Assembly (NCBI RefSeq): GCF_000959525.1 | Contig: NZ_CP009831.1 | Location: forward strand, 806,001-870,000 | DNA: 64,000 nucleotides | DNA from: Burkholderia multivorans ATCC BAA-247 | GTDB lineage: Bacteria > Pseudomonadota > Gammaproteobacteria > Burkholderiales > Burkholderiaceae | Direction: 5' to 3' | Shown: one piece after another, positions 11,450 to 25,716 of the stretch | How positions within the stretch are numbered: the stretch's first letter is position 1 | Layout: each line of letters opens with the position of its first letter | Program-made: the position numbers and the translations under genes | The notes under the pieces: model-generated | Seen by the model: the letters and a program-made list of their open reading frames with translations, nothing else | Database searches by the model: none | Told to the model about the DNA's origin: nothing

Positions 11450-12151
11450 ATGGCAAAACGCATTTTTGAAGTCTACCGCTACGATCCGGACAAGGACGCG
11501 GCGCCGCGCATGCAGACGTACGAGCTCGAGATCAAGCACGAGCGCATGTTGCTGGACGCGCTGGTCAAGCTGAAGGCGCTGGACGAGACGCTGTCGTTCC
11601 GCCGTTCGTGCCGAGAAGGCGTGTGCGGTTCGGACGCGATGAACATCAACGGCAAGAACGGGCTCGCGTGCCTGACGAACCTGAACGACCTGCCGCAGAA
11701 GATCGTGCTGCGTCCGCTGCCGGGCCTGCCCGTCGTGCGCGACCTGATCGTCGACATGACGCACTTCTTCAACCAGTACCACTCGATCAAGCCGTACCTG
11801 ATCAACGACGCGCCGCCGCCGGAGAAGGAACGTCTGCAGTCGCCGGAAGAGCGCGACGAGCTCGACGGCGTGTACGAGTGCATTCTGTGCGCAAGCTGCT
11901 CGACGTCGTGCCCGAGCTTCTGGTGGAACCCGGACAAGTTCGTCGGCCCGGCCGGCCTGCTGCAGGCTTACCGCTTCATCGCGGACAGCCGCGACACGGC
12001 TACCGGCGAGCGCCTGGACAACCTCGAAGACCCGTACCGTCTGTTCCGTTGCCATACGATCATGAACTGCGTCGACGTCTGCCCGAAGGGCCTGAACCCG
12101 ACGAAGGCGATCGGCAAGATCAAGGAACTGATGGTCCGCCGCGCGGTTTAA
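11450..12151 (+). CDS. sdhB: Succinate dehydrogenase iron-sulfur subunit
   Basis: This 233-residue subunit carries the electron relay. The [2Fe-2S] ligands are in [21 protein letters not shown]. The [4Fe-4S] and [3Fe-4S] ligands are in [18 protein letters not shown] and [17 protein letters not shown]. It begins 21 bases after sdhA. All cluster cysteines are present. Confidence 0.98.
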
Positions 12152-23114: not shown

Positions 23115-24182
23115 ATGAAGATTGCAGTGCTGCCGGGCGACGGCATCGGTCCGGAAATCGTCACCGAAGCGGTGAAGGTGCTGAACGCACTCGACGAGAA
23201 GTTCGAACTCGAACAGGCGCCGGTCGGCGGCGCGGGCTACGAGGCGAGTGGTCATCCGCTGCCGGACGCGACGCTGAAGCTCGCGAAGGAAGCCGACGCG
23301 ATCCTGTTCGGCGCGGTCGGCGACTGGAAGTACGACTCGCTCGAACGCGCGCTGCGTCCCGAGCAGGCGATTCTCGGGCTGCGCAAGCACCTCGAGCTGT
23401 TCGCGAACTTCCGTCCGGCGATCTGCTATCCGCAGCTCGTCGACGCGTCGCCGCTGAAGCCCGAACTCGTCGCTGGCCTCGACATCCTGATCGTGCGCGA
23501 ACTGAACGGCGATATCTATTTCGGCCAGCCGCGCGGCGTGCGGGCAGCGCCGGACGGCCCGTTCGCCGGTGAGCGCGAAGGCTTCGACACGATGCGCTAT
23601 TCGGAGCCGGAAGTGCGCCGCATCGCGCACGTCGCGTTCCAGGCCGCGCAAAAGCGCGCGAAGAAGCTGCTGTCGGTCGACAAGTCGAACGTGCTCGAGA
23701 CGTCGCAGTTCTGGCGCGACATCATGATCGACGTGTCGAAGGAATACGCGGACGTCGAGCTGTCGCACATGTACGTCGACAACGCGGCGATGCAGCTCGC
23801 AAAGGCGCCGAAGCAGTTCGACGTGATCGTCACCGGCAACATGTTCGGCGACATCCTGTCGGATGAAGCGTCGATGCTGACGGGTTCGATCGGCATGCTG
23901 CCGTCGGCGTCGCTCGACAAGAACAACAAGGGTCTGTACGAGCCGTCGCACGGTTCGGCGCCGGACATCGCAGGCAAGGGCATCGCGAATCCGCTCGCGA
24001 CGATCCTGTCGGCCGCAATGCTGCTGCGCTATTCGCTGAATCGCGCCGAGCAGGCCGACCGCATCGAGCGCGCGGTCAAAACGGTGCTCGAACAGGGCTA
24101 CCGCACCGGCGACATCGCGACGCCGGGCTGCAAGCAGGTCGGCACGGCGGCGATGGGCGACGCAGTGGTCGCGGCGCTCTGA
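23115..24182 (+). CDS. leuB: 3-isopropylmalate dehydrogenase
   Basis: This 355-residue NAD-dependent oxidative decarboxylase carries out the third committed step of leucine synthesis. It opens with [15 protein letters not shown], and has the metal/substrate block [28 protein letters not shown] and the C-terminal [19 protein letters not shown]. It follows leuD after 76 bases and is followed by a hairpin at 24211-24245. Confidence 0.97.
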
Positions 24183-24210
24183 GCGGCCGGCAAGTCACGA
24201 TGTAGAAAGG

Positions 24211-24245
24211 GCGCGAACGGGCCGAAAAAATCGGTTCGTTCGCGC
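24211..24245 (+). terminator. Hairpin after leuB
   Basis: GCGCGAACG (24211-24219) pairs with CGTTCGCGC (24237-24245), and the interior CCGA/TCGG pair extends the stem around AAAAA. There is no T run after it, so termination may be weak or Rho-assisted. It separates leuB from the asd promoter. Confidence 0.5.
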
Positions 24246-24256
24246 ACGGTTGGCCG

Positions 24257-24285
24257 TTGTGCGGGCAACCGGCTTTGTGTAGACT
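24257..24285 (+). promoter_or_regulatory. Predicted sigma-70 promoter of the asd leader
   Basis: TTGTGC (24257-24262) and TAGACT (24280-24285) are separated by exactly 17 bases. A start 7 bases after the -10 box falls on the A of the leader-peptide ATG at 24292. Confidence 0.5.
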
Positions 24286-24291
24286 CGAACG

Positions 24292-24411
24292 ATGGCGCTG
24301 ATTTCCCTGATCTCCCCGGTCCTGAAACTCCACGGCAACACTGCCCGTGCGGGTGCGCGCGCCATCGTCATCACGAAAACCATTACCACGAAAACGATCA
24401 TTAAACGCTGA
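24292..24411 (+). CDS. Thr/Ile/Lys-rich leader peptide upstream of asd (predicted attenuation leader)
   Basis: A 39-codon frame begins at ATG 24292, directly after an in-frame stop at 24280, and ends at TGA 24409-24411. Its last 15 residues are [15 protein letters not shown]: five Thr, five Ile and three Lys. These are end products of the pathway that Asd feeds. Lysine is AAA each time although AAG dominates here. The arrangement is like E. coli thrL. No ribosome site precedes the ATG, but the predicted transcript would start at or next to it, which allows leaderless translation. The stop lies 82 bases before asd. Confidence 0.65.
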
Positions 24412-24423
24412 TCGTCCGTCGTG

Positions 24424-24472
24424 CCCGCCTGTTTCCCCGCGCGGTCACGCCGGGGGCGGAAATGGCGGGGAA
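24424..24472 (+). promoter_or_regulatory. Alternative hairpins between the leader peptide and asd
   Basis: TTCCCCGC (24433-24440) can pair with GCGGGGAA (24465-24472), or its core CCCCG with CGGGG (24451-24455). CCCGCC (24424-24429) can also pair with GGCGGG (24464-24469). The choices are mutually exclusive, as expected of an attenuator. No T run follows, and the asd ribosome site (AAAGG, 24482-24486) lies just beyond, so control may act on translation or Rho access. Confidence 0.45.
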
Positions 24473-24493
24473 GCTCCATTCAAAGGGTTAGTC

Positions 24494-25615
24494 ATGAACG
24501 TAGGTCTCGTAGGTTGGCGCGGCATGGTCGGCAGCGTCCTGATGCAGCGCATGCAGGAAGAGGGCGATTTCGACCTGATCGAACCGGTGTTTTTCAGCAC
24601 CAGCAACTCGGGCGGCAAGGCACCGTCGTTCGCGAAAAACGAGACCACGCTGAAGGACGCGACCAACGTCGACGAACTGAAGAAGTGCGACGTCATCATC
24701 ACGTGCCAGGGCGGCGACTACACGAACGACGTGTTCCCGAAGCTGCGCGCGGCGGGCTGGAACGGCTACTGGATCGATGCGGCTTCGTCGCTGCGGATGA
24801 AGGACGACGCGGTCATCATCCTCGATCCGGTGAACCTCGACGTGATCAAGGACGCGCTCGTCAAGGGCACGAAGAACTTCATCGGCGGCAACTGCACGGT
24901 CAGCCTGATGCTGATGGCGCTCGGCGGCCTGTTCCGCGAGAACCTCGTCGACTGGATGACGGCCATGACGTATCAGGCCGCGTCGGGCGCGGGCGCGCAG
25001 AACATGCGTGAACTGCTGTCGCAGATGGGCGCGCTGCACGGCGCGGTGCAGCAGCAGCTCGCCGATCCGGCATCGGCGATCCTCGACATCGATCGCCGCG
25101 TGCTGGCCACGATGAACAGCGACGCGATGCCGACGAGCCATTTCGGCGTGCCGCTCGCGGGTTCGCTGATTCCGTGGATCGACAAGGATCTCGGCAACGG
25201 CATGTCCAAGGAAGAATGGAAGGGCGGCGCGGAAACGAACAAGATCCTCGGCAAGCCGGCGATGGGCGAGCCGGGCTCGATCCCGGTCGACGGGCTGTGC
25301 GTGCGGATCGGCGCAATGCGCTGCCACTCGCAGGCGCTGACGATCAAGCTGAAGAAGGACGTGCCGCTCGACGAGATCGACGGCATTCTCGCGTCGGCGA
25401 ACGACTGGGTGAAGGTCGTGCCGAACGAGCGCGAAGCGTCGATGCACGATCTGTCGCCGGCGAAGGTCACCGGCACGCTGACCGTGCCGGTCGGCCGTCT
25501 GCGCAAGCTCGCGATGGGCGGCGAATACCTGTCGGCGTTTACGGTCGGCGATCAACTGCTGTGGGGCGCGGCCGAACCGCTGCGCCGTATGCTGCGCATC
25601 CTGCTCGACAAGTAA
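24494..25615 (+). CDS. asd: Aspartate-semialdehyde dehydrogenase
   Basis: This 373-residue NADPH enzyme converts aspartyl phosphate to aspartate semialdehyde, the branch point to Lys, Thr, Ile, Met and diaminopimelate. It starts [20 protein letters not shown] (nucleotide-binding fold); the catalytic nucleophile is C134 in [16 protein letters not shown], and [16 protein letters not shown] holds the catalytic histidine. I chose ATG 24494, the family start, after AAAGG; the open frame before it overlaps the leader region. It lies between leuB and fimV, as in Pseudomonas. Confidence 0.97.
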
Positions 25616-25650
25616 GACGTGATCGCGCGCCGGCCGGCGCGCGATGCGAC

Positions 25651-25689
25651 GCGCCTGCGTGCCTTCAACGGGCCGCAGGCGCGTTTTTT
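25651..25689 (+). terminator. Intrinsic terminator of asd
   Basis: GCGCCTGC (25651-25658) pairs with GCAGGCGC (25675-25682), followed by G and six T. It lies 36 bases after the asd stop. Confidence 0.85.
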
Positions 25690-25716
25690 ATCGGCGGGCG
25701 CAGTGCCCGAAAATGC

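Follow-up and report, generated by a model that had tools for sequence, protein, structure and literature searches.

A conserved Thr/Ile/Lys-rich leader peptide upstream of asd in Burkholderia and related genera, probably part of a leaderless, ribosome-sensing attenuator

The asd gene of Burkholderia multivorans, encoding aspartate-semialdehyde dehydrogenase, is preceded by an unannotated 39-codon open reading frame in which 13 of the final 15 codons specify Thr, Ile or Lys. We consider it probable that the asd control region is a leaderless, thr-like, ribosome-sensing attenuator, whatever its output step. This reading builds on a conserved ORF, its tail, the spacing of an upstream box, complementary RNA segments and the register of the stop codon, all of which are observed in the sequences. 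The product of Asd is the common precursor of Lys and diaminopimelate (cell wall), Thr, Ile and Met, and Asd is essential for cell-wall growth in most bacteria.

The window, that is, the whole 64-kb stretch of DNA that was analysed, belongs to a genome of 6.3 Mb. Matches to Pfam and NCBIfam models bore out the identity of asd given in the first-pass annotation. The leader frame lies in the spacer between a leuB-like gene and asd, and 80-90 nt separate the leader stop codon from the asd ATG, which is long for re-initiation. The features of the region are as follows.

23115-24182: leuB-like gene upstream of the leader (Pfam Iso_dh match)
24257-24262, + strand: candidate -35 element TTGTGC, 17 nt before the -10-like box (sequence)
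24280-24285, + strand: -10-like box TAGACT, 6 nt before the leader ATG (sequence; conserved spacing)
24292-24411, + strand: leader ORF of 39 codons, predicted to be leaderless, unannotated (sequence, conservation)
24331-24349, + strand: hairpin P inside the ORF, CACGG:CCGTG (arm pattern in 86 of 136 loci)
24364-24408, + strand: control codons, the final 15, of which 13 are Thr, Ile or Lys (codon count)
24394-24400, + strand: segment 1, ACGAUCA, in the last codons (complementary to the start of segment 2)
24409-24428, + strand: segment 2, starting on the stop codon (complementary to segments 1 and 3)
24433-24440, + strand: 5' arm of stem B, UUCCCCGC (conserved helix)
24441-24459, + strand: segment 3, GCGGUCACGCCGGGGGCGG, enclosed by stem B as its loop (complementary to segment 2)
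24465-24472, + strand: 3' arm of stem B, GCGGGGAA (conserved helix)
24482-24487, + strand: asd ribosome-binding site AAAGGG (sequence)
24494-25615, + strand: asd, aspartate-semialdehyde dehydrogenase (TIGR01745, PF01118, PF02774)

The first-pass annotation had singled out the 39-codon frame as rich in Thr, Ile and Lys. In its six frames the window has 1284 stop codons with 15 open codons before them, and the runner-up among these tails contains only 8 such residues, so the enrichment is genuine and well outside what chance would give. The leader peptide matched no Pfam family at an E-value of 0.001 and no NCBIfam family at an E-value of 1. Across 91 distinct leader peptides, the final 15 residues contained on average 11.4 and at least 9 Thr, Ile or Lys, figures that rest partly on leaders chosen for having at least seven of these residues in the final 15 codons. 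Met, which is also derived from the Asd product, made up 0.1% of the tail residues in the same 91 peptides, and this near absence counts against the attenuator reading.

No Shine-Dalgarno sequence was seen on inspection of the sequence before the leader ATG, in line with the earlier statement that the leader lacks a ribosome site. The box-to-ATG distance was 6-8 nt in all 72 distinct leaders located (59 at 6, 4 at 7 and 9 at 8 nt), and 6, 7, 8 and 9 nt in 47, 7, 19 and 4, respectively, of the 77 leaders from the listed named loci; the range is partly set by the search because the finders allowed 5-9 nt. The peak at 6 nt and the absence of a Shine-Dalgarno sequence are no artefact of that finder range. 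One further leader (L032) carries the box TACTAT at 6 nt. Within the 64 kb, both strands included, a box 5-8 nt before the ATG of a frame shorter than 500 codons occurs only twice. The other TAnAnT case, at 11463 on the - strand before a 12-codon frame, is probably due to chance.

With a start about 7 nt after the box, transcription would begin on or next to the leader ATG, and leaderless initiation of the leader peptide is predicted on this basis. The spacing in the leaders of relatives thus supports the earlier prediction of a transcription start on the ATG itself. The promoter with a 17-base spacer proposed in the first-pass annotation fared less well: TTGTGC and the spacer are present, but of the 48 aligned leaders only those from the window's genus retain the -35 candidate, and a strict sigma-70 scan called no promoter. 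The term 'asd' is absent from the main text of the start-site papers on B. cenocepacia and C. metallidurans.

When 299 genomes of the family were searched with the peptide, every one of the 41 sampled from the window's genus proved to carry the leader before asd, and other genera gave weaker matches. A covariance model of the 3' half of the leader (R1), built on 37 aligned sequences, matched 194 of the 299 family genomes, in 9 of 25 genera. The comparison with relatives that had been suggested as a check therefore came out in favour of a conserved Thr/Ile/Lys run before asd, in these 9 of the 25 family genera sampled. The host genome contains one match to R1, plus a chance-level match at an E-value of 4.68. 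With stricter filters, R1 was also run on a sample of 300 genomes from the order; it hit five, every one a member of the window's family.

Scanning named genomes with a pattern yielded at least 119 matching stretches, 80 of which were listed. Apart from L232, the listed loci belong to Burkholderia, Paraburkholderia, Caballeronia, Trinickia, Cupriavidus and Ralstonia. The element lies directly before asd in 79 of the 80, and a proper leader was found in 77; the other three are L175 and L215, at locus ends, and L232. This last locus, labelled Methylocapsa, was considered as a true member and rejected as a chance match, having neither asd nor a leader ORF. All three leader scans required a box 5-9 nt from the ATG, and two of them also required at least seven Thr, Ile or Lys in the final 15 codons. 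They recovered leaders at 99 of 100 loci (72 distinct), 36 of 40 and 77 of 80. The misses were L032 (box TACTAT; added later), L135-L138 (reduced genomes), L175 and L215 (locus end) and L232 (chance). In addition, the element pattern missed L009 because of one changed base in stem B.

Among 40 regions chosen by their asd genes, 21 lacked the element in the pattern search. L072, one of the 21, belongs to a reduced genome that R1 does match (G060, E-value 4.3e-8). The corrected leuB-asd gap is roughly 25-100 nt in most of the leader-less regions listed, and about 210 nt in L067 and L091. Five genera (g7, g11, g15, g16 and g17) had no R1 match among the matches listed. Their Asd proteins are about 78-85% identical to that of the window, and those of the leader-bearing genera g3, g5 and g24 about 70-80%. 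Because Asd of the leader-less genera is as close or closer, either they have lost the leader or asd has been transferred across lineages.

The RNA around the leader stop codon contains segments with more than one possible partner. Segment 1 is complementary to UGAUCGU (24409-24415), stop codon included, and the part of segment 2 reading UCGUCCGUCGUGCCCGC (24412-24428) is complementary to segment 3, which reads GCGGUCACGCCGGGCGA in several genera. The 2:3 helix has up to 15 pairs with two single mismatches. Both the 1:2 and the 2:3 pairing overlap or adjoin the stop codon, and since stem B encloses segment 3, 2:3 and B cross. Mutually exclusive hairpins had been placed earlier at 24424-24472; the partners are indeed there, and the conserved pairings extend beyond that interval to involve 24394-24428. 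Visual inspection had suggested a shorter stem, CCGUC..CCCG with CGGG.GACGG, which gave way to the longer 2:3 helix after a duplex calculation.

A strand-swap test covered 58 distinct combinations of 2:3. The native duplexes summed to -1441.5 kcal/mol, whereas shuffled ones gave -1353 +/- 15 kcal/mol, and none of 1000 shuffles was as good. In two-sided pair comparisons the native pairing won 1021 times out of 1609. For 11 of 13 representatives, no more than 33 of 500 shuffles equalled the native 2:3; the window's own 2:3 was not better than shuffled strands (118/500), and L059 also failed (300/500). The stem alignment used 60 of 70 distinct sequences, and three sequences without the exact CGTG core were left out of one sequence table. 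In the 60 aligned sequences, 91.3% of the cells of 2:3 plus B were paired, against 43-59% when the alignment was slid by 1-3 columns. Two-sided changes in 2:3 plus B amounted to 17 cells, 12 of them from one event, a C-G to U-A double change in 2:3 that is found in 12 of the 60 sequences.

By two of five covariation measures, namely the number of pairs with two-sided changes (2) and of pair types (13), 2:3 plus B did not exceed shuffles, and 1:2 exceeded them by none of the five. Stem B is nearly invariant in free-living members. As proof of structure, the pair counts are modest for 2:3 and nil for 1:2.

Single stems have been rebuilt in reduced genomes, all from one genus: stem B as UAUUCUAAG:CUUAGAAUA in L135, 2:3 as AUGUCCACCC:GGGUGGACAU in L138, and 1:2 as ACGAUUA:UAAUCGU in the centroid fold of L137. 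No leaderless Thr/Ile/Lys ORF was found by the script in these three loci, whose genomes measure 1.1-1.2 Mb. L136 likewise went unrecognised by the finder, and R1 matches its genome weakly (G028, E-value 0.0026). Decay of the attenuator could be followed in such reduced genomes.

Leader translation, folding order, the direction of the switch and the output step are what we infer from this arrangement. Transcription would begin on the leader ATG or no more than about two bases away, and the bare 5' end is where ribosomes would load. When Thr, Ile or Lys is short, the ribosome would stall in the codon run and cover segment 1, leaving segment 2 free to pair with segment 3 once the latter has been made; formation of 2:3 would hinder stem B, and asd would be expressed. 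Segment 3 is transcribed before the 3' arm of B, and a stalled ribosome would let 2:3 form first. When the amino acids are plentiful, the ribosome would reach the stop codon and cover the first half of segment 2, 2:3 would be weakened, another fold would form and asd expression would fall. In assigning ON to the 2:3 state we follow the analogy of known attenuators.

Whether it is TGA, TAG or TAA, the leader stop codon precedes the GUG core of segment 2 by 11-15 nt in every one of the 109 distinct leaders, so a ribosome halted on it would be expected, given the usual size of a ribosome footprint, to shield the outer half of segment 2. Hairpin P, inside the ORF, has the arms CACGG:CCGTG in 81 of 136 loci and CGCGG:CCGCG in another 5, the pattern being absent in the remaining 50; P is possibly a pause hairpin.

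Folding calculations compared two constrained states, the best fold with the 3' arm of B open and the best fold containing B. With segment 2 free, the open state minus the B state averaged +0.34 kcal/mol (sd 3.19), and the open state was favoured in 35 of 73 leaders. Masking 12 nt from the stop codon onward favoured B by 5.70 kcal/mol, with the open state preferred in 3 of 73, and masking 9 nt favoured B by 4.94 kcal/mol, with the open state preferred in 9 of 73. The two constrained states thus shift with masking in the direction that the attenuator expects. The open state is not always 2:3, being another hairpin in the window.

A simple two-state equilibrium switch was not borne out. Specifically, over the stretch that runs from the stop codon through stem B, the equilibrium of 65 of the 73 leaders is dominated by a nested third fold, in which segment 2 pairs with the 3' arm of B and the 5' arm of B with segment 3. 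The number is 67 when 9 or 12 nt are masked, and masking therefore does not flip the equilibrium. A longer RNA including the asd start was scanned with each distinct stop-to-asd stretch represented once, which reduced the 72 distinct leaders to 45. There, the probability of stem B was 0.68 with a ribosome stalled in the run, 0.42 with a ribosome on the stop codon and 0.38 without a ribosome, and it was higher in the stalled than in the stop state in 33 leaders and lower in 5 of the 45. This gain of stem B contradicts the simple model, except if folding is under kinetic control. Because the equilibrium results are unlike a simple switch, the attenuation model needs folding during transcription, and energy models do not settle the RNA switch.

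A scan of 24150-24600 called no intrinsic (U-tract) terminator, in agreement with the earlier remark that no T-run terminator is seen. We tentatively suggest, with clearly less than even confidence, that the output may be Rho-dependent termination on the C-rich leader RNA; control of asd translation comes only slightly behind, and some other step is also conceivable. The best 78-nt C/G ratio of the window leader is 2.15, a value reached by 0.13% of background stretches. The ratio is at least 1.61 in the 91 distinct leaders, the 95th and 99th percentiles of the background being 1.41 and 1.70. The fit of these ratios to a Rho loading site is only circumstantial because Thr, Ile and Lys codons are themselves G-poor.

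Alternatively, the leader might control the translation of asd, the ribosome on the stop codon leaving RNA that pairs with the asd start region and a stalled ribosome freeing the start. This is a possibility to which we give rather limited credence. It agrees with the lack of a U-tract terminator and with the behaviour of the asd start region (-18 to +6), whose exposure was 0.386 with the ribosome on the stop codon and 0.511 with it stalled; the region was more open in the stalled state in 30 and less open in 2 of the 45 leaders (Wilcoxon p 7e-7). Moreover, the asd site is paired in the minimum-energy folds computed for the window and L040, and a translational attenuator based on a leaderless uORF is cited for mycobacteria in the excerpt available of PMC13236596. 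On the other hand, the asd Shine-Dalgarno bases themselves were unchanged (0.532 on the stop codon, 0.513 stalled; p 0.26), the start region was as open without a ribosome (0.507) as with a stalled one, and the pairing partners, judged by eye, differ between genera. Since the wider start region does change its exposure, the translational reading stays a candidate despite the unchanged Shine-Dalgarno bases.

The crossing of 2:3 and B could also mean that the two coexist as an H-type pseudoknot, which would be the regulatory structure and which a translating ribosome would melt or permit. We regard this as unlikely. Segment 2, the 5' arm of B, segment 3 and the 3' arm of B follow one another in the appropriate order with 0 nt between the 5' arm of B and segment 3, and both helices are conserved; however, by a geometric estimate, a full 15-pair 2:3 leaves the connecting loop too short, so only the inner part of 2:3 could coexist with B.

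Returning to the proposed ribosome-sensing attenuator, its sensing part would fit the variation of the leader peptide. In several genera (e.g. L073, L083, L065 and L124-L155) the N-termini are unrelated and the tail is kept; meanwhile, the order of Thr, Ile and Lys changes between leaders and their number stays high. A diverging N-terminus with a kept, reordered tail is the pattern expected of a codon sensor, not of a sensor of peptide shape. It is very unlikely, for these same reasons, that the leader is an arrest peptide that itself stalls the ribosome instead of reporting tRNA charging: the motif MAxISxIS...KLHGxTARA is strongly conserved in several genera and the C-terminus is basic, but the N-terminal sequence is lost in other genera and the residue order in the tail changes while the count remains high.

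The codons of the tail also depart from the usage of neighbouring genes. AAA accounts for 239 of 253 tail Lys codons, against only 3 of 53 in leuD, leuB and asd of the window, and ATT for 188 of 361 tail Ile codons, against 6 of 53 in those genes. This preference, which runs against the neighbour-gene bias, may reflect sensing of tRNA isoacceptors or a constraint on the RNA. The first-pass annotation had expected silent drift outside the Thr/Ile/Lys run, which was contradicted by the data: across 29 loci of the genus, none of the leader's 19 fourfold sites varies, whereas 55 of 120 do so over codons 1-250 of asd. The nucleotides of the leader are therefore constrained as well as its residues.

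That the leader merely boosts asd translation via re-initiation without sensing amino acids, a role proposed for leader genes in the excerpt available of PMC4833913, is highly improbable, as asd has its own ribosome-binding site, the codon bias of the tail would be unexplained and the stop-to-ATG distance of 80-90 nt is long.

A more speculative combination, which we think improbable, is that a leaderless peptide reads Thr, Ile and Lys, not Met, and controls asd through a switchable pseudoknot with no terminator, and that the RNA, so tightly constrained, or the conserved peptide may in addition act in trans. If the attenuator reading is true, a sensor of several end products at the Asd branch point would be a new control point in well-studied bacteria, and a leaderless attenuator would be added in the beta-proteobacteria. 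Furthermore, the lack of a U-tract terminator would make attenuation without intrinsic terminators directly testable.

The leader of the thr operon is the thrL attenuator, represented in Rfam as Thr_leader (RF00506). Common to thrL and the asd leader are a short Thr/Ile-dense ORF before a gene of the aspartate family and, potentially, alternative RNA pairings around the stop codon. In having codons for the pathway's end products clustered in a small frame ahead of the biosynthetic gene, the asd leader fits the ribosome-mediated amino-acid attenuators. Unlike thrL, the asd leader would control asd, contains many Lys codons, has neither a Shine-Dalgarno sequence nor a U-tract terminator, and has a stem B that crosses 2:3. 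An Rfam scan of 23900-25700 gave no relevant family and no Thr_leader match at E-values up to 10. The asd leader is therefore not classed as Thr_leader, and, lacking a U-tract terminator, it is not classed as a classical transcription attenuator either.

No such leader before asd in these bacteria was found in the available excerpts of open-licence PubMed Central papers, and an older description is possible; 'asd' and 'threonine' are absent from the main text of PMC2965389. According to the excerpt available of PMC7298713, the trpL leader ORF of Sinorhizobium meliloti starts at the first base of the transcript and acts in ribosome-dependent attenuation; the asd leader shares the predicted leaderless start, whereas trpL concerns another amino acid and another gene and uses a transcription terminator. 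The ilvBNC leader of Corynebacterium glutamicum has its start site one base from the start codon and no ribosome-binding site, as described in the excerpt available of PMC11857589. It resembles what is predicted for the asd leader in its start and in its hairpin switch, but relies on branched-chain codons and a terminator hairpin and occurs in unrelated bacteria. Finally, the mycobacterial polycysteine leaderless short ORFs (Canestrari 2020, as cited in the excerpt available of PMC13236596) resemble the asd leader, as predicted here, in being a leaderless uORF rich in the regulated amino acid, with Cys codons and other genes in their case.
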